From: a virus | Virus record (IMG/VR): IMGVR_UViG_3300042922_000744 | Span: 1 to 46,938 of that record | DNA length: 46,938 bases | Strand: one strand, 5' to 3' | Shown here: piece after piece, positions 1,251-33,358 of the stretch | How the letters are laid out: each line of letters begins with the position of its first letter | How positions within the stretch are numbered: position 1 is the stretch's first letter | Translations under genes and position numbers: made by a program | The notes under the pieces: model-generated | What the model saw: only the letters and a program-made list of their open reading frames with translations | The model's database searches: none | Told to the model about the DNA's origin: nothing

Positions 1251-1682
1251 ATGCCTACGATCACAGGTCCGATCCTCGACTCCGCCGCTCGTCCGGCGAA
1301 TGGGCAGCTCCGCGTACGCGCGTCGCGCCCCTTCGATATCGGCGCGGGTCACGTCACGCAGGCGGTCGGATGGGTCACCGTCCGGGATGGCGTCCCGTAC
1401 CTCCCGTCCGGGGCGTGGAGCCTTCCGGCCACGCCGGACGGTGTGACGCTCACGCTTGAGCAGGATCTCGACGGTGAGCAGAGCGTCGCGTTCTCCGTCA
1501 CCGTGCCCGACGTGCAGACGCTGTCCTACAGCGAGCTCCTGTTCAACCGCGGTGGTGGCGAGGGCGGCGCGAATCCCTACTGGTGGGATCTCACCGGCGG
1601 GCTCGATTTTCCTCCCGCGGCTGTCGACGGCGACTTCGGGTACGACACGGAAACCGGCAACTATTGGAGGTACGAACGATGA
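1251..1682 (+). CDS. Small baseplate/tail protein (143 aa)
   Basis: The ATG at 1251 follows an AGGGGG site and starts 5 bp after the Gp37-like gene. The protein is beta-rich and has no membrane segment. It ends in a DGDFGYDTETGNYWRYE stretch of the kind often found at the C-terminus of phage tail-fibre and baseplate proteins that attach to collagen-like or fibre domains. Its last codon overlaps the ATG of the tailspike gene (ATGA), so the two are translationally coupled. A function as an adaptor between baseplate and spike is inferred from position only. Confidence 0.6.
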   Translation: MPTITGPILDSAARPANGQLRVRASRPFDIGAGHVTQAVGWVTVRDGVPYLPSGAWSLPATPDGVTLTLEQDLDGEQSVAFSVTVPDVQTLSYSELLFNRGGGEGGANPYWWDLTGGLDFPPAAVDGDFGYDTETGNYWRYER

Positions 1683-4111
1683 CCAAGATTCTCCTCGGAA
1701 ACCTGAAAGGGCCGAAGGGCGACAAGGGCGACAGCGTCAAGGGCGACCCCGGTCCAGCGGGCCCGAACACGATCCCGGCAGCCGACTTCATCGGGTCCGA
1801 GATCTCTCGCTCAGGCTCCCCCGCGAAGCAGGCGCTCCTCACCGAGTTCGTGACTCAGCTGACAGCTGCGGGCGGCGGTGTGAACGACGCTCCCCGAATC
1901 AACGCACTCACTCAGGACTCGGCGTTCGGTATCCCGAAGACCGTCGTCCTATCTGGCGAGTTCGACCTCGCGAGCACGATGCGGGTCGGGAGTAACGTCA
2001 CGCTCGATTGCCGTCAGGCGAAGTTCAAGGGTCGCGCTGGCTGGTCGGGGTACATGCTCGAGACGCACGCGATGTCCCGCATGGTGAAGTCCCCGTGGAT
2101 GCAGTCGCTCGTCGCTGCAGCGGGCGGGACGCTCGCAGCTGGGACGTACGCCTACCAGGTGTCTGCGGTCACGGCGACGGGTGAGACGATGGCCGGCGCG
2201 CGCCGCACGGTGACGCTCGCGACTCCGGGGTCGGCCGTGCTGACGTGGACCAAGCCCACAATCCCTGCGGGCGCCGCCGACGTCACGTCATACCGCATCT
2301 GGGGACGCTCGGCCGCGAATGGTGTCGAGCGCACGCTGCTCGCCACGGTCCCCGCCGGGACGCTCACGTGGACGGACAACGGCTCGGTCACCCCGCAGGT
2401 GGGCGCGTACCCGCCCGCGACGAACACGACGTTCGGCCGCACCCACGACGTCACGATCCTCGGCGGCGAATGGGACGGCAATGGCCCGAACCGTCCGGGC
2501 GCGGACTACGAGTGGCCGTCGGGAACCTGGGCCGGGCACATCTTCAACCTGTTCAAGGTCGACCGACTCACGATCCGCGACCCGCTCATGCGGAACGCGA
2601 TCAAGTGGGCCATCGCGATCGCCGACTTCACCGACCTCCGCACCGACAACCTTCAGTTCCTCACCACCTCCGACGGCATCCACGTCGTCGGTCCCGGCAA
2701 GGGATGGCAGGGCGACGGCTTCACCGGGACGGTCGGTGACGACCTCATCGGCATGTCGCTGGTCGAGTGGCCGACCTATGCCGTGTCCGAGGGTGACCTC
2801 GAAGACATCACGGTGAAGAACATCCACTCCACGGCCAACAGCCCGTCCGCAGTCCGGATGCTGCACGGCACCCGCCGCGCGTTCAGGAACATCACCATCG
2901 ACGGCGTCACGGGGGAGTACACGAAGTACCGCGACGCGGCGACCGGTGAGTACACCGTGCCCGCCGTGGGCATCGTGTTCTGCGACGCCGGCCAGGCGGA
3001 CGAGACCCGCGGCAAGATCGGCGGCGTAGGCGGCTCCGCGAAGAACATCACCATCCGCGGTGTTCTTCCGGGCGCGCAGCAGGGTTCGACGATCCGACTC
3101 GCGGGCGCGCTTGACCAGGTGACGATCGACGACGTGAACGCCGTCGGGTTCCTCGCGGTCGACGTGACGAACATGCAGGGTGACAGCCTCACGGTCCGCA
3201 ACCCGCGGGCAACGGAAGCGCACGCCGTGCAGTTCTACAACAGCGTCATCGACCGCGTCACGGTCAACTCCCCGAAGGTAAAGACGGCCACTCCGCTCGA
3301 CAAATCCGGTGTGTACGTTCTCGATGGAAACATCGGGTTCATCGGGGTCACCGACCCTGTGATCGAGGCAGCTCTCACGTCGGTGTACGCCTACTCGGGC
3401 ACGGTCGGCCGCATCTCCGTGTCGGGTGGGCACCTCTCGGCGGGGCAGGCGATCGTGAAGACTCGCATCGCGACGAGCATCTCGGTGCGCAACGTGGACG
3501 CTCCCGCCCTGAGCGCTGGCGCGGTGGGCGTTTACACCGCGGGCGCCGCGACCGTCGCTCTCGAGCACTCCGGGCTCGCGCTCGGCACGAAGCCGGTCGT
3601 GTTCAAGGACGGGTCGCAGCTCGTCACGTTTCGACAGCCGGGCGTGACCGAACTGTTCGTGCCTGCTGCGGCGTTCGCGACCATGGCCGGTACCCCTGCG
3701 ATGGATCACGGGGCGGTCGCTGCATGGCTGGCGTTCGACCAGGCGACGCAGGAACAGGCGATCGCCTGGGTTCAGACCCCGGCCGGATGGGACGCTGCGA
3801 CCGTACGCGCAGAGCTCCTGTGGCTCTCGCCGTCCGCTTCGACGGGCGACGTCGTCTGGCGAGTGCAGATCCGGCAGAACACGATCGGTGCTGACGCTGC
3901 GGTAGAGGCGGCGATCAGCGACGTCACCGCCGGAGCGGCTGTGGCTGGTACCGATCAGCTGAAGCTGAAGGCCACCACCTACGGGCCGGCGGTCGCGATC
4001 GCCGGGGGCAAGATGCTGGGCATCAACGTCTTCCGGAACGCGTCCAGCGGGTCCGACACCCTTCCCGCAGACGCGGGCCTCGTCGGGGTCAGGCTGACGA
4101 GGGTGCTGTAA
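1679..4111 (+). CDS. Tailspike / receptor-binding protein with collagen-like and beta-helix regions (810 aa)
   Basis: This probably binds, and may depolymerise, a host surface glycan. Residues about 8-29 are collagen-like Gly-X-Y repeats (GPKGDKGD, GDPGPAGP), a trimerisation feature of fibres. A fibronectin-like segment follows around residues 145-230 (GTYAYQVSAV, SYRIWGRS). The long middle part has repeated short strands such as NITIRGV, QVTIDDVNA and DSLTVRNPR, typical of a right-handed parallel beta-helix of the pectate-lyase type. The C-terminal part is a separate beta domain. The start is the ATG in an ATGA overlap with GGAGG upstream. Its 3' end overlaps the convergent glycosyltransferase by 23 bp. 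The substrate cannot be read from the sequence. Confidence 0.8.
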   Translation: MTKILLGNLKGPKGDKGDSVKGDPGPAGPNTIPAADFIGSEISRSGSPAKQALLTEFVTQLTAAGGGVNDAPRINALTQDSAFGIPKTVVLSGEFDLASTMRVGSNVTLDCRQAKFKGRAGWSGYMLETHAMSRMVKSPWMQSLVAAAGGTLAAGTYAYQVSAVTATGETMAGARRTVTLATPGSAVLTWTKPTIPAGAADVTSYRIWGRSAANGVERTLLATVPAGTLTWTDNGSVTPQVGAYPPATNTTFGRTHDVTILGGEWDGNGPNRPGADYEWPSGTWAGHIFNLFKVDRLTIRDPLMRNAIKWAIAIADFTDLRTDNLQFLTTSDGIHVVGPGKGWQGDGFTGTVGDDLIGMSLVEWPTYAVSEGDLEDITVKNIHSTANSPSAVRMLHGTRRAFRNITIDGVTGEYTKYRDAATGEYTVPAVGIVFCDAGQADETRGKIGGVGGSAKNITIRGVLPGAQQGSTIRLAGALDQVTIDDVNAVGFLAVDVTNMQGDSLTVRNPRATEAHAVQFYNSVIDRVTVNSPKVKTATPLDKSGVYVLDGNIGFIGVTDPVIEAALTSVYAYSGTVGRISVSGGHLSAGQAIVKTRIATSISVRNVDAPALSAGAVGVYTAGAATVALEHSGLALGTKPVVFKDGSQLVTFRQPGVTELFVPAAAFATMAGTPAMDHGAVAAWLAFDQATQEQAIAWVQTPAGWDAATVRAELLWLSPSASTGDVVWRVQIRQNTIGADAAVEAAISDVTAGAAVAGTDQLKLKATTYGPAVAIAGGKMLGINVFRNASSGSDTLPADAGLVGVRLTRVL

Positions 4112-5177
4112 ACGATGCCGGCGAGTGGATCGCTGCTCGGTGTGCACGAGCCCACGCTTCGAGCGTGTGTGCCTGTGCCCATTCGAGCGCGACCGCTCGC
4201 CGGCTTTCGTCGTTTGCGGCGTCCCGCAGCGCTCGAACCCATTCGGTCAGCGGCGCGTCGCGCGGCACGGTGTAACCGCCCGCGGTCTGGACGATCGATT
4301 CGAGTCCGTTGCCGCCGTTCGCGACCGTGACGAGACCCGAAGCTGCGGCTTCGAGGATGACGGTCGGCAGTCCTTCACCGTGGCCGGTCGACGTGAACAG
4401 GAAGACGTCAGCAGCCTGGTAGAGCATCGTCGGGTCACCCTGCGAGAACACCCGCAGGTCCGTGCCGTCGACGAGACGGCCGATGCGCTCGAACTCTGAG
4501 CCCTGCCCCATCATGAGGACCGGCCCCGGCCAGACGGTCGCTACCGCCGCGGCGAGGTCCGGAAGCTTCGACGGGTCCATGCGCCCCACCCACAGCACAA
4601 CGCTGGCGCTCTCGGGTATCCCGTGAACGCGACGCGCGATCCGGCGCTCCTCCTCGGACGCCGGGTGGAAACGGTCAGTGTCCGCCGGGTTCTCGATGAC
4701 GACGAGCTTCGACGCGTCGTGGACCAGGGGCTCGATGCTCTGGGCAACGGCGTCCGAGACGCAGATGATCCGCTCTGCGTGCTTAGACGCAGCCCTGTAT
4801 GCGGGCCCGATCAGCGCGCGGATCTTGCCGTCGAACCGTCCGTGCTCGGTCCAGACGACGGGCGCACGCTTCGCGAGCATCCGGGTGAAGCCGACCTGCT
4901 CGCGCTTGAACTGCACGTGGAATGCATCGAAGGTGGTGTCTTTGATGGACGCATGGAGTGCGCGTCGTTCCGCCGGTAGCCGCAGCAACGACGACAGGAG
5001 CGTCCGCGTGCGCCACTTCGGCCCCAGAGCCACAGGGATCGTCTCGCCGCGCCAATCAGGAATGCCTCCGACGAGCGTAAGGCGGTCGCCCTGGCCAGTG
5101 AATTCTCGATCGAGCCGTCGCAGATACTCTTCGGCTCCACCAGAGCCGTCGGTGGCGCACACAACACCCACATGCAT
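4089..5177 (-). CDS. Glycosyltransferase, GT4-type (362 aa)
   Basis: Predicted retaining sugar-nucleotide glycosyltransferase with the GT-B fold. The N-terminal domain opens with MHVGVVCATDGSGGAEEYLRR, the usual GT4 start with a glycine-rich acceptor loop. The donor domain has LWVGRMDPSK near residue 195 and an E-x7-E pair at E268 and E276 in the HGEGLPTVILEAAASG motif. No membrane segment or signal is seen, so it is cytoplasmic. It lies leftward, opposite to the tail genes, and overlaps the tailspike 3' end by 23 bp. One 60-base line counted by hand is 65% GC, close to the genome. As a gene silent to virion assembly beside the receptor-binding protein, it could alter host wall glycans in lysogens, or glycosylate a virion part; both are inferences. 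Confidence 0.88.
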   Translation of the reverse strand: MHVGVVCATDGSGGAEEYLRRLDREFTGQGDRLTLVGGIPDWRGETIPVALGPKWRTRTLLSSLLRLPAERRALHASIKDTTFDAFHVQFKREQVGFTRMLAKRAPVVWTEHGRFDGKIRALIGPAYRAASKHAERIICVSDAVAQSIEPLVHDASKLVVIENPADTDRFHPASEEERRIARRVHGIPESASVVLWVGRMDPSKLPDLAAAVATVWPGPVLMMGQGSEFERIGRLVDGTDLRVFSQGDPTMLYQAADVFLFTSTGHGEGLPTVILEAAASGLVTVANGGNGLESIVQTAGGYTVPRDAPLTEWVRALRDAANDESRRAVALEWAQAHTLEAWARAHRAAIHSPASFTAPSSA

Positions 5178-5238
5178 GCTGCGGATCGTATCACCAGCTC
5201 CTCACGCCTCCGCGAGATCGGGCAGCCGGGACTTCCCG

Positions 5239-6090
5239 TCAGAAGTACTCGTAGTTGTCCCGCGCTCCGCCGTTGCTGGTTTCCCGTATTGCTGAGCGTT
5301 TCCAGATGCGACCGAGATCGGACTTCTCCGTGATTCTTCCGGAATAGATGCCGAACAGCTCCCAGTGTTCGTCCAAACCGAACTTCGCGCCAGTGGTGCG
5401 GGTCGTTCTGGCTCGATCCGGCGTCCAATAGCCGATGACCGGAGACCCGGATTGTCCCTCTCGTCCTCGCGCGTCGACCAAGAAACAGGGCAAATCGTCG
5501 AAGTCGAGCGCCGGTTCAGAGGCGACCGTCCCGCGTGTCCAGACCGCTGTCGTCGTACGGTCTCGGACATCATCCGGGAAGCCGACGATGCTGACATCCG
5601 AAGTCGGAGAAAGGACGGTCGGGTCAGAGGGCTCTGCAATGTCGTACGGGACAAGCCGAATCCCGTCGGGCAATTGCATCGGAGGTAGGGAGAGTGCCAC
5701 AACGTCCACCCGTCTGCCGTGTGTCGGATGGATGCGCCACAGCGAGCGTCCTTCGGAGTCATACAGCGGGACTGAGAGCAGGCTGGATATCATCGTGCCG
5801 CTGGAATGGATCGCCCAAAATGACACGTCGACACGATCCGGCAGTGCTGCGCTTCCCTTCGGTTCGTCGGTGAGCGGGTCTCTGCCGGTGAGCACATGCC
5901 AATTGGTGATCAGATCGAAACCGTCGCCGGCCCGGACTAGGAAGCCAGAGCCAAACCCCAAAGTCTTTAGGGATGACCCGTCATAGAGCGGACGAGCAGT
6001 TGCTAAGAAAGCCGTCATTGCGGACGGCTGCGACAGTCTGATCACGAGACCCATCTTGCACGGCTTCAAATGCGGCCCATAGCTGTTCAC
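5239..6090 (-). CDS. Trypsin-like serine protease (283 aa), low-GC moron
   Basis: Predicted chymotrypsin-fold protease of the Trypsin_2 type. The catalytic triad is visible: H65 in LITNWHV, D129 in VDVVALSL and S214 in GQSGSPVIGY, with an upstream GFGSGFLV strand. There is no signal peptide or anchor, so it would act in the cytoplasm, unlike secreted trypsins. It ends in an Arg/Lys-rich WKRSAI-type tail seen in stand-alone bacterial proteases of unknown target. The start is uncertain: a GTG at 6090 with a weak GAGAAG site, or ATG at residues 13 or 25. Three 60-base lines counted by hand give 53, 53 and 55% GC against about 70% in a replication gene line, which suggests recent transfer. The role may be defence or exclusion; no target is known. 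Confidence 0.85.
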   Translation of the reverse strand: MNSYGPHLKPCKMGLVIRLSQPSAMTAFLATARPLYDGSSLKTLGFGSGFLVRAGDGFDLITNWHVLTGRDPLTDEPKGSAALPDRVDVSFWAIHSSGTMISSLLSVPLYDSEGRSLWRIHPTHGRRVDVVALSLPPMQLPDGIRLVPYDIAEPSDPTVLSPTSDVSIVGFPDDVRDRTTTAVWTRGTVASEPALDFDDLPCFLVDARGREGQSGSPVIGYWTPDRARTTRTTGAKFGLDEHWELFGIYSGRITEKSDLGRIWKRSAIRETSNGGARDNYEYF

Positions 6091-6181
6091 GACTTCTCAA
6101 TCGGACGCGCGGCGATTCGTTCGACGCAGTCGTCCGCAGCCTGAGAGGGTGCCCGTCCACCAGGCCGCTCACCAAGTTGGC

Positions 6182-6478
6182 TCAGGAGCGCTTCTCGTAG
6201 GTGCCGTGGGGCGGCTTCCCTCGACGCTGCTGTCCCTCGGCGATGTACGGCATTGCGCCGGGGAACGCGGCGAGCAACGCGGACGTGAGGATCTGGTTCT
6301 CGTCGATCGCGTGGTAGCCGATCCAGCGTCCGACTTCGGGGAGCAGGATGTCGGGACGACCACCGCCGAGCTGCCGCAATTCGTCGATGACGGGCTGCGG
6401 CTCGCGCGTGTACTGATCACGGCCCATCGCGGCGCTGAGCGCGATGCTCAGCATCACGTCGGGATGCAGGACGCTCAT
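6182..6478 (-). CDS. Hypothetical protein (98 aa)
   Basis: I do not recognise this family. The ATG at 6478 overlaps the stop of the preceding leftward gene (ATGA), which fixes the start. The protein is soluble and mixed helical, with a hydrophobic N-terminal helix (VMLSIALSAAMG), a Gly-rich turn before LLPEVGRWIGYHAIDENQ, and a basic tail (QQRRGKPPHGTYEKR). It belongs to the leftward cluster that ends with the protease and glycosyltransferase genes, and is separated from the protease by 91 bp that may hold a separate promoter. Confidence 0.65.
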   Translation of the reverse strand: MSVLHPDVMLSIALSAAMGRDQYTREPQPVIDELRQLGGGRPDILLPEVGRWIGYHAIDENQILTSALLAAFPGAMPYIAEGQQRRGKPPHGTYEKRS

Positions 6479-6774
6479 ACGCGGCGGATGCTGAGCAGCT
6501 CGTACCCCTCGGGCACCTTCGCTCGCAGCGCGTCCGTGTCGCCGGCTTCGATCTCGGTGAGCCCGTCTCGGCGGGCGAACTTCCCTACGGCGCGGAACTC
6601 GGTCGTCCCCTTCTGCGGCTCGGGGTGCATCTCGGTCAGTTCCCATCCGGGAGGGGCTTCGAGCTGCGCGCGGAGGGCGTCGATGCCTTCACCGATGACC
6701 TCTCGCTCGCGGGTCTCGACGGGGCGGATCATTCCGATGAGCATGCGTTCGATCGTAGATCGGTCAGCGGACAC
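6475..6774 (-). CDS. Hypothetical protein (99 aa; ATG start would give 89 aa)
   Basis: Unrecognised small cytoplasmic protein. It contains two similar halves, each with an APPGWELTEM or VPEGYELLSI pattern of about 10 residues, so it may be an internal duplication of a beta-alpha unit. The GTG at 6774 lies 9 bp after the stop of the preceding gene; an in-frame ATG at 6744 is an alternative, and neither has a convincing ribosome site. Its stop overlaps the start of the next leftward gene by 4 bp, implying translational coupling. Confidence 0.6.
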   Translation of the reverse strand: MSADRSTIERMLIGMIRPVETREREVIGEGIDALRAQLEAPPGWELTEMHPEPQKGTTEFRAVGKFARRDGLTEIEAGDTDALRAKVPEGYELLSIRRV

Positions 6775-6783
6775 CGCCCGGCA

Positions 6784-6921
6784 TCATCTCTCGATGCGGG
6801 TGCCATCCGCGAGCATCAGCACGCCGCATCCGCCGCACTCATACCCGCGCGGGTCATCGCGCAGCACGGTCCCGCAACCGGGGCAGTGCGGCTGCGCGCC
6901 TGCGTCGAGCGGGTCGGTCAT
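6784..6921 (-). CDS. Small zinc-ribbon protein (45 aa)
   Basis: A very short protein with two CxxC pairs (CPGCG and CGGCG) spaced about 15 residues apart, the minimal layout of a zinc ribbon. Such proteins often bind nucleic acid or another protein; nothing here shows which. It is the first gene of the leftward cluster. The 47 bp between its ATG and the rightward gene at 6969 must hold the promoter for the cluster, but I see no clear -10/-35 pair there. Confidence 0.6.
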   Translation of the reverse strand: MTDPLDAGAQPHCPGCGTVLRDDPRGYECGGCGVLMLADGTRIER

Positions 6922-6968
6922 CCCGGCACGATAGTCCGAATGTCGGAGGTGCACGGAAGCCTGTCCAC

Positions 6969-7163
6969 ATGGCTGACGACCTTCTCGCGCGAGCACACGA
7001 ACTCGGCGCCGACCATGCAGAGCTGAACCACCGCGGGAGACTCCATCACCGGATGCACAGCGGCCGCGAGATCGCTCGCGCGCTGGGCGCCCCGGACCTC
7101 GAGGGCGAACAGGTCCTCGCGATCCGCGATTCGTACAACTTCGGGTGGAGCAGCTGGGCTTGA
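6969..7163 (+). CDS. Hypothetical protein (64 aa)
   Basis: Unrecognised small protein rich in His and Arg in its first half (LNHRGRLHHRMHSGRE), ending in IRDSYNFGWSSWA. The ATG has a GGAAG site about 9 bp upstream. Third codon positions are about 80% G or C by hand count, which supports coding on this strand over the leftward frame that overlaps it. Its stop overlaps the TTG start of the next gene, forming a two-gene rightward unit just before attP. Confidence 0.5.
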   Translation: MADDLLARAHELGADHAELNHRGRLHHRMHSGREIARALGAPDLEGEQVLAIRDSYNFGWSSWA

Positions 7164-7396
7164 TCCCGACTGCTGATCTTCTCGCCTTCGAGCGCGCCCA
7201 CCCACGGAACACCGGCTGGAAAGAAGAAGCGATTCGCGCTCGTTTCAAGGTGCCGCCGGCGCGGTACTTCCAGCTACTCGGGCGCGCGATCGACACGCTC
7301 GAGGCTGAGGCGCTGGACCCGATGCTGGTGCACAGGCTGCGCCGGATCCGTGATGACCGTCGGGCGATGCGAGCTCGCCGGACGAGCGCCGCGTGA
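7160..7396 (+). CDS. DUF3263 family protein (78 aa)
   Basis: The pattern LLAFERAH...GWKEEAIRARFKVPPARYFQLL...DPMLVHRLRRIRDDRR matches DUF3263, an actinobacterial family with a helix-turn-helix-like fold, so DNA binding is plausible. The TTG at 7160 is chosen because it overlaps the previous stop (TTGA) and has GGTGGAG 9 bp upstream; a GTG at 7145 is the alternative. It is the last gene before attP, so in a prophage it would lie at the attachment junction. It may regulate the adjacent genes; that is inference. Confidence 0.82.
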   Translation: MIPTADLLAFERAHPRNTGWKEEAIRARFKVPPARYFQLLGRAIDTLEAEALDPMLVHRLRRIRDDRRAMRARRTSAA

Positions 7397-7400
7397 TCCG

Positions 7401-7517
7401 CCACTTACTCGCCGTTTTGAGCGGAATCTGGCGGTATCTCGCAACCACTCACTACGCATCGACGACCCCGCGCGCCGCGTGAAATCAACGCGGCGTCGCT
7501 TCGCCACCACTCAGTAC
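7401..7517 (+). repeat. Three direct repeats, candidate integrase arm sites
   Basis: Near-identical motifs occur at 7401-7410 (CCACTTACTC), 7445-7455 (CCACTCACTAC) and 7507-7517 (CCACTCAGTAC), all in the same orientation. Their placement on one side of the tRNA core fits arm-type binding sites for the N-terminal domain of a tyrosine integrase. Binding is inferred. Confidence 0.55.
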
Positions 7518-7519
7518 TA

Positions 7520-7569
7520 TTAGGACTCGCTAACGCTTCAGTCTGGGTTCGAGTCCCAGTGGGGGCACC
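7520..7569 (+). other. tRNA 3'-end segment, probable attP core (tRNA-Leu-like)
   Basis: A T-stem CTGGG / loop TTCGAGT / stem CCCAG lies at 7543-7559, followed by TGGGGGC as the 3' acceptor strand, the discriminator A and CC. Upstream, TTAGGA followed by CTCGC could be the anticodon loop (UAG) and stem, and a 12-nt variable region fits a class II tRNA such as Leu. No 5' half is present, so this is a tRNA fragment carried to restore the host gene on integration. The amino-acid identity is tentative. Confidence 0.75.
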
Positions 7570-7595
7570 TAATATCCCCGGAATGCCAGTCATCT

Positions 7596-7627
7596 AGGCC
7601 CTCATCGACTTCGGTCGGTGGGGGCCT
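7596..7627. terminator. Hairpin terminator with TTCG loop
   Basis: A 14-bp stem (two G-T pairs) runs from AGGCCC at 7596 to GGGCCT at 7627 with a TTCG tetraloop at 7610-7613. It lies 9 bp beyond the integrase stop and just after the tRNA fragment, so it can end both the leftward integrase operon and, after integration, the host tRNA transcript. T-runs are weak on both sides. Confidence 0.75.
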
Positions 7628-7635
7628 TTCGCTAT

Positions 7636-8799
7636 TTACTCGCTGTTTTCGCCGAAGGCGTCGAGCGCTGAAGTCGCGTCGGGCCCGACGGCGAGGCGCT
7701 GCGTGTAGTGCTTCCGGGTGACGGTGCTGCCCGACGCGTGGCCGAGCTGCTCGCCAGCTACCTCGATGCCGAGCTCGTCGCGGATCCGGGTGGCTACCGC
7801 CTTCCGCAGCGAGCGCGGCGAGACCTCGGCGTAAGGCGTGCCCGCGAGGGCTTCGCGCCAGTTGCGTCGGAGGTTGTGTGGCCACCGCAGCGTGCCGACG
7901 GCGGACGGGAACACCCATTCGCAGTACGAGTGGATGCGCCGGCGAGTGAGCACGTCGGCGACGTACTGCGGCAGCTTCAGGACCCGACGGGATGAGTCGG
8001 TCTTCGGGTGCTCCTGGACGAACACCTTGCCGTCAGCGTCGAGGGTGACCGTGCCGTGAATGCTGATCGTCGGGCGGGGGAGTGCGTCGAGGTCGACGTC
8101 GTCCCAGCGCAGGGCGAGGATCTCCGCGGTGCGTGCGCCGGTCCCGCTGAACACGTCGAACAGGTCGCCGAGATCCGCGACGCGCTGGTTGCCGCGCTTG
8201 TCGGGCGTCGTGTCGTAGGCGCGCATGAGCGCAGCCATCTCGCGGATCGAGTGGGCGTCGGGAGCGACGACCGGTTTCCGTGGCTGAACGATGCGGCCGG
8301 CGTCGCGGACGGGGTTGCTGCGGATGGCGCCGTGGCGCACCGCGAGCGCGAAGACGTGCTGTAGCAGGGTCCGCGCTGTCTTCGCCGTCGACGGGCCGTT
8401 CTCTGTCGTGACGCTCTTGAGGAACCGGTCGACGCGGGGGACGGTCGCTTCGCCGAGGCGGACCCCGCCGAACCCGTTCTTCACGATCGTGCCGAGGATG
8501 TCGGTGTACCGGCGCACCGTGGCGATCGCGAGCTCCGATCGTTCTGGCTCGGCCAGCCACTTCTCTGCCGCTTGCTTCACCGTGGTGTCCGCGGTGAGGT
8601 CCTCGCCGGCGGGCGCGAGGCGCGCCTTCATGGCGCGGATCAGGTTGCGTTCGGCCTCGGCGCCGGTCTTGCCCTGCCGCTGCATCTTCCGGGTCTTGCC
8701 GTCGGAGTCGCGGTAGTACGCGACTGCGGCGTGCTTCCCGTCGACGACGATGCGGCGGATCTTGCCCCAGGTTTCGAGCTCGAGCGGCGGCCGCGGCAT
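7636..8799 (-). CDS. int: Tyrosine integrase (387 aa)
   Basis: Site-specific recombinase for integration at attP. The layout is an N-terminal arm-binding region (residues 1-65), a core-binding SAM-like domain (about 73-155) and a catalytic domain (180-375). Visible catalytic residues are R223 (GTGARTAEIL), K266 (HPKTDSSRR), R332, H354 (QLGHAS) and Y365 (KHYTQR). The box-II position that is normally His in HxxR is R329 (SPRSLR), an unusual substitution. The ATG shares one base with the stop of the upstream gene, so the integrase is read as the last gene of the repressor operon. attP and a terminator follow directly. Confidence 0.95.
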   Translation of the reverse strand: MPRPPLELETWGKIRRIVVDGKHAAVAYYRDSDGKTRKMQRQGKTGAEAERNLIRAMKARLAPAGEDLTADTTVKQAAEKWLAEPERSELAIATVRRYTDILGTIVKNGFGGVRLGEATVPRVDRFLKSVTTENGPSTAKTARTLLQHVFALAVRHGAIRSNPVRDAGRIVQPRKPVVAPDAHSIREMAALMRAYDTTPDKRGNQRVADLGDLFDVFSGTGARTAEILALRWDDVDLDALPRPTISIHGTVTLDADGKVFVQEHPKTDSSRRVLKLPQYVADVLTRRRIHSYCEWVFPSAVGTLRWPHNLRRNWREALAGTPYAEVSPRSLRKAVATRIRDELGIEVAGEQLGHASGSTVTRKHYTQRLAVGPDATSALDAFGENSE

Positions 8800-9110
8800 T
8801 AGCTCCGCCCCTTCTCCGCGCGCTTCGCTGCGGCTGCCAGCTGGCGAGGCGTGGCGAGCGCGTGCACGGCCGATAGCGCGCCACGGTACTTCGTGCCGAA
8901 CCCGACGACGATCCCACGCGGCCCGTCGCTGACCTCGAGGACGACGCGATCGCCGAGCTCGGGCGCTTTGGCGAGCGACCAGGTGTACGCGTATCCGCGG
9001 TCCAGATCGCTCGGGTCCCAGGCGGGTGCGGGCTCATGGAACTCGCGATAGGCGATGCGCACGACGGGCGGTTTCGGAGCCGGTTTCGTCGATCGCTTGC
9101 GACCGAACAT
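8799..9110 (-). CDS. Hypothetical protein of the lysogeny operon (103 aa)
   Basis: Unrecognised basic protein. It opens with a short Lys/Arg/Pro-rich stretch (MFGRKRSTKPAPKPP), then has a beta-rich middle (RVVLEVSDGPRGIVVGFGTKYRG) and ends in an Ala/Lys-rich helix. It overlaps by single bases both the ImmA-type gene upstream and the integrase downstream, so it is co-translated with them. A nucleic-acid role is possible from its charge, but nothing identifies it. Confidence 0.7.
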   Translation of the reverse strand: MFGRKRSTKPAPKPPVVRIAYREFHEPAPAWDPSDLDRGYAYTWSLAKAPELGDRVVLEVSDGPRGIVVGFGTKYRGALSAVHALATPRQLAAAAKRAEKGRS

Positions 9111-9571
9111 CAGGCCACGTCCTCGCGGTGCAGCCAGTTGCCGGCACCCATCTTCGGGGCGACGTAAACAGTGTCGCCGAGCCGCGTCAGCAGCCCCTGA
9201 AACGCGACGAGGATGCTCTTCATGACGCCGAGCTCGAGCGCCATGGCGCCCGGGTGGCCGGCGTGGATCTCTTCGACGTGCCGGTAGTCGCCGGGTGAGA
9301 TGAGTCGCAGTGCCGCCCACTCCTCAGCCATGCGTTCCTGCTTCGCGTGCACCGGTCCGAAGCGTGACGGGGTGTGGCCGAATGCCGCGTGCGCCAGCTC
9401 GTGAGCGAGCACGCAGCGGTGGAGCCGTGCGTTCATCCCAGGGCGAAGCCGGATGAGCTTCAGCTCGTGGTGATACTCCCCGTCGCGGCCGTGCCGGAGG
9501 TGGGAGTACTCGATGCGCACGCCGGCCTGGCGGGCAAGGTCCTCGAGGTACTCGTCGATCGGTGTCGTCAT
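9110..9571 (-). CDS. ImmA/IrrE-family metallopeptidase (153 aa)
   Basis: Zinc metallopeptidase with HELAH at residues 57-61 followed by FGH at 64-66, the ImmA/IrrE signature. In the family, ImmA cleaves a partner repressor after DNA damage and so triggers induction. The partner here is very likely the adjacent repressor, whose stop codon overlaps this start (ATGA). The protein has the usual length for a single-domain ImmA and no membrane segment. It is transcribed leftward between the repressor and the integrase. Confidence 0.88.
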   Translation of the reverse strand: MTTPIDEYLEDLARQAGVRIEYSHLRHGRDGEYHHELKLIRLRPGMNARLHRCVLAHELAHAAFGHTPSRFGPVHAKQERMAEEWAALRLISPGDYRHVEEIHAGHPGAMALELGVMKSILVAFQGLLTRLGDTVYVAPKMGAGNWLHREDVA

Positions 9572-10026
9572 TGCTCGTCGGTGGGCTCCGGGTCGGTGGT
9601 GCGGGCTACGGCGTCCAGCTCATCTTCCGCTGGGGGTGTGACACGGCTGGCCGGGAAGGGTGTCACATTCGACGGTGCGAGCAGTTCGTCCGAGATCGCC
9701 CGCACGGCGCCGTCGACGGCACGGGACCGACGCTCGATCGGCACGGCCTCGATCAGAGTGCCGAGCATGCTGAGCCAGATCTCCGTTTGGTCCTCGAATC
9801 GGACCGGCTCGATGTCTACGCCGAGCACCTGGTAAATGCGCTGGAGGACCTTTGCCTGGGGAGTGGTGTTGCCGTTCTCGATATCGCTGAGCGTCTGCCG
9901 CGAGACATTCGCGTTCTCCGCGAGTTCTTCCTGCTTCATGCCCTGGTCAAGTCGAAGTGACTTGACCCTCTGTGCCAACGAAGCACGGGCGTCAGCGGAG
10001 AGCTTTCCGGAAAAGTTTCTTGACAT
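9568..10026 (-). CDS. Phage repressor, XRE/Cro-CI type HTH (152 aa)
   Basis: Probable lysogeny repressor. An XRE-type helix-turn-helix lies at about residues 18-72 (LRLDQGMKQEELAENANVSR, TLSDIENGNTTPQ). The C-terminal half is not a LexA-type S24 protease; it is a short Glu/Pro-rich domain, consistent with inactivation by the adjacent ImmA-type peptidase. The ATG has no ribosome site and lies 7 bp after a TACGTT -10 element, so the mRNA is probably leaderless. It is first in the leftward operon repressor-ImmA-103 aa protein-integrase and diverges from the Cro-like gene across an operator-bearing gap. Confidence 0.9.
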   Translation of the reverse strand: MSRNFSGKLSADARASLAQRVKSLRLDQGMKQEELAENANVSRQTLSDIENGNTTPQAKVLQRIYQVLGVDIEPVRFEDQTEIWLSMLGTLIEAVPIERRSRAVDGAVRAISDELLAPSNVTPFPASRVTPPAEDELDAVARTTDPEPTDEQ

Positions 10027-10033
10027 GAACAGG

Positions 10034-10063
10034 AACGTATCATGCCTAGAAATCGCGGCACAA
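10034..10063 (-). promoter_or_regulatory. Putative repressor promoter (leaderless)
   Basis: On the minus strand, TTGTGC (complement of 10058-10063) and TACGTT (complement of 10034-10039) are separated by 18 bp. The -10 lies 7 bp before the repressor ATG, with no room for a ribosome site. The match to consensus is moderate. Confidence 0.5.
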
Positions 10064-10109
10064 GTGGGCAGTTCTTTGACATGAGGTCCAGAACCTGAGT
10101 TCAGGGGGC

Positions 10110-10139
10110 TTGCTTCTGTGTCCAGAACGTGTCTAAAGT
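10110..10139 (+). promoter_or_regulatory. Putative early rightward promoter (leaderless)
   Basis: TTGCTT at 10110-10115 and TAAAGT at 10134-10139 are separated by 18 bp, and the ATG of the Cro-like gene follows 7 bp later. No purine-rich ribosome site lies before that ATG. The -10 lies inside the GTCCAG/CTGGAC inverted repeat, so repressor binding would block it. Confidence 0.5.
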
Positions 10140-10146
10140 CCTGGAC

Positions 10147-10371
10147 ATGAACCAGCAACGACCCGCCGGTGAAGCGCTCCGGACATTGCGCCGCATCGCA
10201 GGCCTCACTCTCGAGCGAACCGCCGAGCTCGCGGACACCGCGCCTGCCTACCTGTCCAAGGTCGAGACGGGCCGCCTCGTCCCTACCGTGGGCTACGTCG
10301 CAAACGTGACGTCGGCAATCGCTTCGCATATGCAGCAGACCGGCGAGCTCACGAACAAGGTGGCGGGCTGA
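10147..10371 (+). CDS. Cro-like HTH protein (74 aa)
   Basis: Small XRE-type DNA-binding protein covering essentially one helix-turn-helix domain (LRRIAGLTLERTAELADTAPAYLSKVETGRLVP). As first gene of the rightward operon, opposite the repressor, it fits a Cro or early regulator. The ATG at 10147 is preferred to an in-frame GTG at 10129 because it sits at the expected start of a leaderless transcript and the GTG lies inside the operator. Its stop shares a base with the next ATG. Confidence 0.82.
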   Translation: MNQQRPAGEALRTLRRIAGLTLERTAELADTAPAYLSKVETGRLVPTVGYVANVTSAIASHMQQTGELTNKVAG

Positions 10372-30698: not shown

Positions 30699-32033
30699 TT
30701 GGCAGAGATCGGATACCAGACCGCCCCCCTGCAGGGATGGGCGGGCATGCTCGCCGAAGTCGTCAACGAGACGAACCCCGAAGTGCAGTGGCCGCAGTCG
30801 AACGTCGTCTACGACCGGATGCGCCGCGAGGACCCGCAGGTGATGTCCGTGCTCCGCGCGGTCACGCTGCCGATCCAGGAGACGGAGTGGCAGCTCGACG
30901 ATGCTGGCGTTCGCCCCGAGGTCGCCCAGCACATCGCGGATGACCTCGGTCTCGCGATCAAGGGCAAGCCCCGGACAGCGCCGCTGCGCACCAAGGGCCG
31001 CTTCTCCTGGGACGAGTTCCTCCGCCTCGCGCTGCTCGAGCTGGTGTTCGGACACTCCGTGTTCGAGCAGGTCTACTCGATCGACGCGTTCGGCCTCGCC
31101 CACCTCAAGAAGCTCGCCTGGCGTCCGCCTCGCACGATCGAGAGCTTCGACGTAGCTGCCGACGGTGGCCTCGTCGCAGTCCGACAGCACGGCGTCGCAT
31201 TCGCGCCGTCGCCCGGCCGCTCGAACTTCATCGGCGCCCACCTCGACGGCGTCCGCATCCCCGTCGACCGCCTGGTCGTGTACGTCAACGAGCGCGAGGG
31301 ACCGAACTGGATCGGCGTCTCGCTGCTGCGCGCCGCGTACAAGATGTGGCTCCTGAAGGACCGCACCCTCCGCGTCCAGGCACTCGCCGCCGAACGCAAC
31401 GGGCTCGGTTTGCCGAGCTACACCAGCGCCCCGCCCCCGGACAACGCCAGCTACGAGCAGAAGAAGCAGTGGCTGGACGAAGAGATCGCTCGCGGTCTCT
31501 CGATCGCCAAGGGGGCGCGAGCGGGTGACGCTGCCGGCGCATCGTTCCCACACGGCGCGACGTTCCGGTTCGAGGGCGTCACCGGCAAGGTGCCCGACCT
31601 CGACAAGCAGATCCGGTACTACGACGAGCAGATCGCGCGCGCAGTACTCGCGAACTTCCTGAACCTCGGCGGCGACAACTCGACCGGCTCGTACGCGCTG
31701 GGCGACACGTTCGCCAACTTCTTCACGAACTCGCTCAACGCGCTCGCGCGGCACATCGCGACGACCACGCAGCAGCACGTGATCGAAGACCTCGTGGACG
31801 CGAACTGGGGACCGAACGAGCCCGCCCCGCGGCTCGTCCCGCCGAAGATCGGCGCCGAGCACCCCGCCACCGCCGAAGCGATCCGCGCGCTGCTCGACTC
31901 CGGCGCAATCAAGTGGGACCGCGCGCTCGAGGCGCATCTCCGGGGCCTGTACGGGCTCCCCGTCCGGGACGACACGGATCCTGCACCCGCGGCCGATCCC
32001 GAGCCCACCGAAGAGCCTGAGGAGGCCGCATGA
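30699..32033 (+). CDS. Portal protein (444 aa)
   Basis: Dodecameric portal at the packaging vertex. RREDPQVMSVLRAVTLPIQETEWQ near residue 42 and VFGHSVFEQVYSID near residue 120 are typical of the DUF935-like portal group. A basic loop and a Pro/Glu-rich tail end the protein. The TTG start has AGGAGG 8 bp upstream. Its stop overlaps the protease gene (ATGA). Confidence 0.9.
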   Translation: MAEIGYQTAPLQGWAGMLAEVVNETNPEVQWPQSNVVYDRMRREDPQVMSVLRAVTLPIQETEWQLDDAGVRPEVAQHIADDLGLAIKGKPRTAPLRTKGRFSWDEFLRLALLELVFGHSVFEQVYSIDAFGLAHLKKLAWRPPRTIESFDVAADGGLVAVRQHGVAFAPSPGRSNFIGAHLDGVRIPVDRLVVYVNEREGPNWIGVSLLRAAYKMWLLKDRTLRVQALAAERNGLGLPSYTSAPPPDNASYEQKKQWLDEEIARGLSIAKGARAGDAAGASFPHGATFRFEGVTGKVPDLDKQIRYYDEQIARAVLANFLNLGGDNSTGSYALGDTFANFFTNSLNALARHIATTTQQHVIEDLVDANWGPNEPAPRLVPPKIGAEHPATAEAIRALLDSGAIKWDRALEAHLRGLYGLPVRDDTDPAPAADPEPTEEPEEAA

Positions 32034-33358
32034 ACACCATCCGATCGGCCGCACCCGGCCGCGCCCGTCCGACGTCGGGACCGACCCAGGGCGACGAGCG
32101 GCAGGCGCGCCGGTACTGGGGGTCCGTCGAGCCGCCCAAGGCGAAGACGGAGTTCTTCAGCGCGGTCACCGCGCCGACGGCCACCGGCGACGCGACCGTC
32201 GCGACGATCCGCATGTACGGACCGATCGACTCGTGGGGCGGCTGGTGGGGCATCTCCACGGAAGACGTCGGCCGTGTCCTCGACGCGCTGCCCGAGTCCG
32301 TCGAGGAGATCGTGCTCCGCATCAACTCGCCCGGCGGGGAGGTGTGGGAGGCGATGGCGATCCTGAACATGCTCGGCGCGCATCGCGCGAGCGTGACCGC
32401 GGTCGTGGACGGCCTCGCGGCGTCGGCGGCTTCGTTCATCGCGGCGAGCTGCGACAAGACGTTCATGAGCCCCGGCAGTCAGATGATGATCCACTCGCCG
32501 TCGGCGATCGCCTGGGGCAACGCCAAGGAGATGCGGAAGAACGCTGACTTCCTGGACAAGCTCGAAGAGTCGATGGTCGAGGTCTACACGGCGAAGGCCG
32601 GCGCGAAGGACTGGGCGACGCTGCTCGCGAATGAGACGTGGCTGACGGCCGCAGACACCGTTGAGCTGGGGCTCGCTGACGAGGTCACCGTCGTCGCCGA
32701 CGCCGGCACCGCCACCACGGTCGGGACCGAGGACGACGAACTCGACGTGGTCGTCCTGCCCGTCGAATCCGACGACGACGCGGACGCCGAAGCGCGATCC
32801 ACGCGCGTCCGTGCCGCCGCCGCATCCGCGCGCGCTGCGGCTCCCAAGCCCCCGAGCTCGTCCGAGCCGGGAGAACCCAACACGAAGGAGGCGCTCACGA
32901 TGAGCGACACCATCAAGGCGGGCCTCGTCCAGCGGCTCGGCGTGCGCGCCGAGGCAACCGACGACGAGATCCTCGCCGCAGTCGATGAGGCGCTCGAAGA
33001 GCGCGCCGACCCGACTCCCGCCCCCGCCCCGGCCGCCGCCGCTGCGCTCCCCGAAGGGCTCGTCGCGGTCGACGCCACGGTCCTCGCGCAGCTCCAGGCG
33101 AACTCCACTCGAGGAGCCGAGGCTGCCGCCCGTCAGGACAGCGAGCGCCGTGACGCGATCATCGCGACCGCGCTGCAGACGGGCCGGATCACCTCCGAGT
33201 CGAAGGACACCTGGCGTGCCCGTCTCGACAAGGACGAGAAGGAGTTCGCGGGCGTGCTCGCGGCGCTCCCGGAGAACACGGCCCTCCCCACGACCGAGCT
33301 GGGACACGCCGCCGGCGAGCCCCAGGACAACGCCTACCCCGCGCACTGGAAGCGCTGA
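32030..33358 (+). CDS. Capsid maturation protease, ClpP-type, with C-terminal scaffold domain (442 aa)
   Basis: Residues 55-225 form a ClpP-like serine protease: INSPGG at 98-103, catalytic S132 in DGLAASAAS and H155 in MMIHSP. Residues 226-289 are an acidic to Ala-rich linker. The rest is a helical scaffold-type domain (MSDTIKAGLVQRLG...ITSESKDTWRARLDKDEKE) like the C-terminal part of Mu-type prohead proteins. The protease is expected to cut the scaffold during capsid maturation. A second start for the scaffold alone lies at 32900. Confidence 0.9.
   Translation: MNTIRSAAPGRARPTSGPTQGDERQARRYWGSVEPPKAKTEFFSAVTAPTATGDATVATIRMYGPIDSWGGWWGISTEDVGRVLDALPESVEEIVLRINSPGGEVWEAMAILNMLGAHRASVTAVVDGLAASAASFIAASCDKTFMSPGSQMMIHSPSAIAWGNAKEMRKNADFLDKLEESMVEVYTAKAGAKDWATLLANETWLTAADTVELGLADEVTVVADAGTATTVGTEDDELDVVVLPVESDDDADAEARSTRVRAAAASARAAAPKPPSSSEPGEPNTKEALTMSDTIKAGLVQRLGVRAEATDDEILAAVDEALEERADPTPAPAPAAAAALPEGLVAVDATVLAQLQANSTRGAEAAARQDSERRDAIIATALQTGRITSESKDTWRARLDKDEKEFAGVLAALPENTALPTTELGHAAGEPQDNAYPAHWKR
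32900..33358 (+). CDS. Nested scaffold protein (152 aa), internal start in the protease gene
   Basis: An in-frame ATG at 32900 follows GAAGGAGG at 32884-32891 with an 8-bp gap, as good as any ribosome site in the window. It opens exactly at the border between linker and scaffold domain. The product would be the scaffold alone, as with lambda C/Nu3 and Mu I/Z. Separate expression is inferred from the site. Confidence 0.72.
   Translation: MSDTIKAGLVQRLGVRAEATDDEILAAVDEALEERADPTPAPAPAAAAALPEGLVAVDATVLAQLQANSTRGAEAAARQDSERRDAIIATALQTGRITSESKDTWRARLDKDEKEFAGVLAALPENTALPTTELGHAAGEPQDNAYPAHWKR

Follow-up and report, generated by a model that had tools for sequence, protein, structure and literature searches.

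A putative lysogenic-conversion slot between the tail spike gene and attP of an actinobacterial phage, with a candidate defense protease as additional cargo

We analyzed a phage genome of 46,938 nt (the whole stretch of DNA, hereafter the window) and found that the region between its tail spike gene and its attachment site is probably a lysogenic-conversion slot. According to this reading, to which we assign a probability of about 0.62, a GT4-type glycosyltransferase (GT) that acts on a polysaccharide repeat unit is exchanged together with the spike, and a neighboring protease of the PDC-S45 family was acquired separately. An earlier note on this DNA had interpreted the two genes as one paired system. 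Alteration of the receptor, a surface glycan, is the reading of the GT best supported by sequence comparison, and a defense role of the protease is plausible, but the GT-protease pair as a conserved system is largely refuted.

Results

The ends of the window carry an exact 127-bp direct terminal repeat, and it thus represents a complete circular temperate phage, the host of which is an actinobacterium. The rightward late genes encode terminase, portal, the phage's own ClpP-like prohead protease (32030-33358), capsid, tape measure, and minor tail proteins. The final rightward gene ahead of the slot encodes a tail spike or fibre (1583-4111, plus strand) composed of a collagen-like N-terminal part and a variable receptor-binding part. 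It is followed by two leftward genes, one for the GT (4089-5177, minus strand), the 3' end of which overlaps convergently with that of the spike gene by 23 bp, and one for the protease (5239-6090, minus strand), which lies on the same strand after a gap of 61 bp. The open reading frames, together with the families assigned by Pfam and PHROG, confirmed the earlier placement of two leftward enzyme genes between the tail spike and attP.

Beyond the protease gene lie three small leftward open reading frames and a DUF3263 gene that runs rightward; attP follows, and then the integrase gene. The first of the small genes (6182-6478, minus strand) is conserved and lies where the variable slot ends on its 3' side, with a homolog of 46% identity in the sister phage L130. 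It overlaps by 4 bp with an open reading frame (6475-6774, minus strand) that belongs to no Pfam or PHROG family. The third gene (6784-6921, minus strand) encodes a zinc-ribbon-like small protein that is kept in the sister phage L129 at 74% identity, and the fourth (7145-7396, plus strand) a DUF3263/NapA-like small protein (PF11662, 3e-22; 81% DNA identity to L129). The attP core (7537-7569, plus strand) corresponds to the 3' end of tRNA-Leu(TAA), as judged by its match to actinobacterial tRNA-Leu genes, and adjoins a tyrosine integrase gene (7636-8799, minus strand; PF00589, 3e-10; PHROG 1, 4e-46). Copies of the core with one or two mismatches terminate tRNA-Leu genes in 10 of the 395 Actinomycetes genomes; all eight of the matching genes that were fetched were called tRNA-Leu(TAA) by ARAGORN. 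Because attP lies at tRNA-Leu(TAA), the cargo slot would be located at the end of the prophage, adjoining host DNA, as the earlier note had proposed. The description of the pair as lying beside the attachment site needs some correction, as attP is real and the slot is near it, but the four small genes intervene and thus place the start of the protease gene about 1.45 kb from the att core. A scan for sigma-70 promoters, the model of which is ill-suited to a G+C-rich host, found none.

Two further regions of the window deserve mention. At 9110-10329, a gene for an IrrE-like metallopeptidase (M78) adjoins a helix-turn-helix repressor gene, which may represent a proteolytic induction switch. The helicase/DNA methylase gene at 19639-22482 matches mycobacteriophages at 73-78% DNA identity over short segments and Pseudomonas phages at about 87% over a segment of about 120 bp; elsewhere in the half that was searched, there was almost no DNA match.

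Sister phages provide one part of the case for a conversion slot. Searching with the minor tail protein identified L129 (88% identity) and L130 (83%) as relatives, and a search with the integrase added a third, L131/G003 (86%); all three come from one metagenome, and alignment of the minor tail protein revealed no further close relatives. The DNA homology between the window and its sisters runs through the minor tail gene into the spike gene and stops at 1731 in L129 and at 1770 in L130, so that the N-terminal part of the spike is conserved up to about 1731-1770 and the sequence downstream is variable. In L129, DNA homology returns at the zinc-ribbon (6808-6904) and DUF3263 genes, and in L130, the same border is marked at the protein level by the homolog of the 6182-6478 gene.

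The content of the slot differs between these phages. L129 carries a hydrolase and a protein with 11 TM segments, one loop of which spans about 97 residues; this protein is Wzy-like by topology only and has no profile match. L130 carries a hydrolase, a Wzx-like flippase (12 TM; NF041503, 1e-10, below the curated cut-off and hence a moderate call), and an O-acetyltransferase, for which the call is strong (PF01757, 9e-31; PHROG 6705 "O-antigen acetylase", 9e-40). The third relative, G003, both ends of which lie in the same tRNA-Leu 3' sequence, carries different fibre genes along with an SGNH-like protein and has no recognizable glycan gene in its slot. The cargo is therefore interchangeable, with three different cargoes in three phages and a fourth phage without glycan cargo, and in three of the four phages, both the spike tip and the glycan-altering gene next to it differ. 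In three prophages that are more distant but share related minor tail proteins, the open reading frame lists contained no conversion cargo. In all three phages that carry it, the slot cargo runs wholly or partly leftward, that is, against the late genes and in the same direction as the small genes on the attP side, and most cargo genes have a lower GC3 than the core genes.

The phages seem to exchange spike specificity and cargo jointly, a pattern seen in three phages, a sample too small to show statistical linkage. Joint exchange is likely because the break points are shared, with one inside the spike gene and the other at the small genes before attP. Sequence comparison thereby gives strong support to the slot between spike and attP as a putative site of surface-glycan lysogenic conversion.

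The spike itself yielded little further information. Its receptor-binding part shows a weak similarity to GH28 (PF00295, 0.0065, below cut-off), and a structure model built from the single sequence (pLDDT 39) was too poor and was discarded. A sequence search of the PDB with the spike, the Wzy-like, and the Wzx-like proteins gave no match. As a separate observation, the hydrolase of L130 (5242-6138), which has an alpha/beta fold, is encoded 2 bp behind the spike gene and matches the C-terminal end of the virion structural family PHROG 10356 (6e-20); it might act as an esterase of the virion and form a pair with the O-acetyltransferase encoded in the same slot.

The GT of the window is a soluble GT4-type enzyme, as it contains both N- and C-terminal GT4 domains of the GT-B type within residues 13-328 (PF13439, 1.3e-18, and PF13692, 1.5e-12, both far over the cut-off; PF00534 also over cut-off), an EX7E motif in the C-terminal domain (residues 268-276, E268-E276), and no transmembrane segment by hydropathy. 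It also matches PHROG 2170 (4e-9), a family of the moron class. Peptide patterns retrieved no close relatives of either the GT or the protease from the viral and genome collections, and the relatives described here were obtained by alignment-based searches. Among 395 Actinomycetes genomes, there were only two GT homologs at E <= 1e-20, one with 41% identity over residues 2-355 and the other with 35% over residues 1-350. Both reside in gene clusters together with an initiating sugar transferase (PF02397), other GTs, and a Wzy_C protein; one cluster also contains a flippase (PF01943), in the place of which the other has a multi-TM protein without a Pfam match. Because both homologs sit in polysaccharide clusters, the GT is most like the enzymes that build lipid-linked Wzx/Wzy repeat units. 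The earlier proposal that the GT modifies a surface glycan thus gains comparative support from two sides, the glycan genes in the sister slots and the Wzx/Wzy clusters of the homologs. Alternatively, the GT might be a metabolic or self-protective moron that has no effect on adsorption and acts, for example, on teichoic acid, a glycolipid, phage DNA, or a virion protein. The GT4 superfamily is broad, weak profile matches of the enzyme include PimB-like and MshA-like proteins, and a soluble GT4 could act on something other than surface polysaccharide. Nevertheless, the location of the closest full-length homologs found in Wzx/Wzy clusters and the flippase/acetylase-type genes in the slot of a sister phage make such a moron unlikely.

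The second cargo gene encodes a stand-alone trypsin-like serine protease with an HtrA fold. It matches PF13365 (Trypsin_2, 5e-9) and PHROG 7688 (2.7e-25), and its triad of His65, Asp129, and Ser214 is invariant in 62 homologs. The AlphaFold2 model (mean pLDDT 91) matches the protease domains of DegS and HtrA (Foldseek 1.7e-8). Since neither a PDZ domain (Pfam) nor a TM segment (hydropathy) was present, the kinship to HtrA/DegS is one of fold only, and the enzyme may fairly be placed in the cytoplasm given the lack of a TM segment. Thus, the triad and the chymotrypsin/HtrA fold bear out its earlier description as a trypsin-like protease, with the cytoplasmic location as a fair inference from hydropathy. 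PDC-S45, a single-gene defense candidate of PADLOC, was matched by 62 of 62 aligned family members, and by the window protease at 3e-13 over its C-terminal half only (residues 151-252). The earlier idea of the protease as an intracellular barrier may be kept as a hypothesis for a family that already counts as candidate defense, and we regard a defense role as plausible on these sequence matches.

The base composition sets the two genes apart. The protease gene has a G+C content of 59.7% and a GC3 of 0.69, as compared to 66.9% and 0.78 for the GT gene, while the phage as a whole has 68.3% G+C and its core genes a GC3 of 0.89-0.93. Since the protease gene differs from both the GT gene and the phage, it was probably acquired separately. 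It is also missing from all three sister phages, and in 127 other loci, none of the seven GT queries matched a GT at a distance of up to 3 kb from the protease. The search for the same pair in related prophages that the earlier note had suggested thus showed that the pair is not conserved, and these findings speak against a paired system. The two genes might still form one coupled system, in which glycan alteration acts outside and proteolysis inside the cell, or in which the protease processes the GT or its pathway; they share a strand, are separated by just 61 bp, and could be transcribed as one unit. Given the 127 loci, the sister phages, the unlike base composition, and the PDC-S45 members that stand alone on plasmids and chromosomes, we consider such coupling very improbable. 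The absence of a GT from those loci and of the protease from the sisters led us to treat the protease as a second, independent moron.

The PDC-S45 family is scattered over bacteria, archaea, plasmids, and prophages. Homologs were found in 107 plasmid records, in 38 viral contigs, and in species genomes of many phyla and one archaeon (110 confirmed matches, of which 80 were kept); 5 of 395 Actinomycetes genomes, with the seed genome among the five, contained one. The protease usually stands alone, on plasmids and chromosomes. Genes in its vicinity include SIR2, AbiEii, and type I and ISP restriction enzymes, and integrases are present in several loci. Among the PADLOC models listed, the 140 nearest neighbors matched AriA/Old/GajA-like ATPases, mad3, type I restriction enzyme, and others, while the 57 far controls gave only reverse transcriptase and cysteine-desulfurase-type matches. 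There were more kinds of defense genes near the protease than far from it among these models, in sets of unequal size (140 versus 57) and with neighbor counts that mean "at least". The protease might instead be a counter-defense or a plasmid/prophage maintenance factor, as could be expected from its frequency on plasmids and prophages; its additional presence at chromosomal loci beside known defense genes, among the PADLOC models listed, argues against this reading, which we judge quite improbable.

Two positions of the protease gene recur in phages, one near the integrase and the other between the lysis genes and the terminase. In about fifteen phage loci, a homolog on the late strand neighbors lysis genes, terminase genes, or both, which would fit a late-expressed phage function, such as lysis, virion maturation, or host shut-off, rather than a defense expressed in the lysogen. 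The earlier note had held that a location of the genes only in a virion assembly block would speak against its interpretation, and for the protease, this is half the case. In enterobacterial and related phages, the gene does lie between lysis genes and terminase, but it is accessory there. An E. coli prophage has an intact homolog between Rz and HNH/terminase, while in Shigella phage SfII (L002/L048, about 4462-6624), the gene is interrupted by IS911; thus, SfII does without the protease. Together with this interruption, the orientation of the window protease opposite to the late genes, the phage's own prohead protease, the sister phages that lack the gene, and the many homologs outside phages render a late function unlikely.

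We also looked for a common operon partner of the protease by clustering the flanking genes of 128 loci. The idea was rejected, as the clusters that recurred consisted mainly of lysis, HNH, and terminase genes, in a synteny shared among phages, and of genes common to mobile elements in general. Partners known from Gasdermin/CARD-NLR or Lamassu systems (NLR, gasdermin, LmuB) were not recurrent beside the protease in the 128 loci, and LmuA profiles were matched by 4 of the 62 members, at the protein level only. Other arrangements were seen at single loci. In L010 (5869-7664) and L066 (3135-4935, Kitasatospora), two PDC-S45-type genes lie in tandem and could represent a duplicated effector or a sensor-effector pair. 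In L188 (G344, 6680-8408), a PDC-S45 homolog is located near the end of an apparent prophage, by a Val-Cys-Gly tRNA cluster.

Discussion

Our analysis suggests that the region from the spike gene to attP serves as a lysogenic-conversion (serotype) slot with the GT4 enzyme as its main cargo. In a lysogen, the GT would act on the lipid-linked repeat unit of a Wzx/Wzy-type surface polysaccharide of the host, adding or changing a sugar, and phages with a spike for the unmodified glycan would then adsorb poorly. The receptor-binding part of the spike and the glycan gene would be exchanged together among sister phages, which would hold the glycan bound by the virion and the glycan altered by the prophage in register. 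The protease would most likely stay inactive until superinfection brings in a trigger or substrate from the second phage, and would then cleave a target. This Lit-like mode, with the trigger coming from the invader, is a guess by analogy that we make because the protease stands alone. Expression in lysogens, the acceptor glycan of the GT, and the lowered adsorption are what we infer, as are, by analogy, the trigger and the target of the protease.

More broadly, a spike tip and one part of a Wzx/Wzy pathway (a GT, a flippase with an acetylase, or a Wzy-like protein) might form a single exchangeable unit for host range and lysogen resistance, to which one member adds PDC-S45 defense; we put this forward tentatively, at somewhat less than an even chance. 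Should the spike and the glycan gene truly travel as a pair, the cargo gene would indicate which polysaccharide each phage uses as its receptor. Receptors of actinobacterial phages are poorly known, and conversion by spike-linked glycan genes is textbook knowledge for enterobacterial phages. A limited search of the literature, with subscription journals outside its scope, found no spike-linked conversion module in actinobacterial phages.

The protease is a widespread single-gene defense candidate, found here in a small phage whose host tRNA site is defined, and it matches both PDC-S45 and PHROG 7688. We know of no experimental study of PDC-S45, and the literature searched yielded no experiment on its function. 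A term search of the main text of the DefensePredictor and CARD-NLR papers did not find this stand-alone protease family. Lit of prophage e14 is a prophage-borne, single-gene, cytoplasmic metalloprotease. The window protease would resemble it in being encoded by a single prophage gene, in its cytoplasmic location, and in its proposed action upon superinfection, but the analogy concerns the mechanism only, since the serine protease of the window has no sequence relation to the metalloprotease. PDC-S45 has been listed in Sinorhizobium phiLM21-like prophages (PMC12429752).

The layout of the window, as read from its sequence, resembles the gtrABC and oac loci of P22, epsilon34, Sf6, and SfIV, which are located between tail genes and int-attP and where the cargo lies at the prophage end with attP in a tRNA gene (PMC3851460, PMC2629481, PMC10883804), adjoins a glycan-binding spike, and is exchanged among relatives. 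In converting phages of S. flexneri, the location of conversion genes next to int-attP is the rule (PMC3851460). In P22, the prophage produces GtrABC, which modifies the O-antigen and thereby keeps phages that rely on this antigen from adsorbing (PMC10883804), and a likeness of the window to P22 and the S. flexneri phages in effect would follow by analogy. The likeness to Sf6 extends to an acetyltransferase, present here in the sister L130. In contrast to these systems, the window comes from an actinobacterial phage, and the cargo of its sisters includes flippase and Wzy-like genes. GtrA (PF04138) was detected neither in the window nor in its three sisters, while 7 of 14 control genomes were positive. 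Moreover, the type-specific GT of GtrABC is a membrane protein with 9-11 TM segments that acts outside, whereas the window GT is a soluble GT4 without a TM segment, which should modify the repeat unit prior to its export. Pseudomonas phage D3 carries a polymerase (Wzy-beta) that changes polymerisation. Its conversion also involves an O-acetylase and an inhibitor (in part PMC12373910), and D3 resembles the phages described here in having prophage genes that alter polymerisation and acetylation of a Wzy-type polysaccharide. Here, however, different sister phages carry these functions, and a GT is present in the window.
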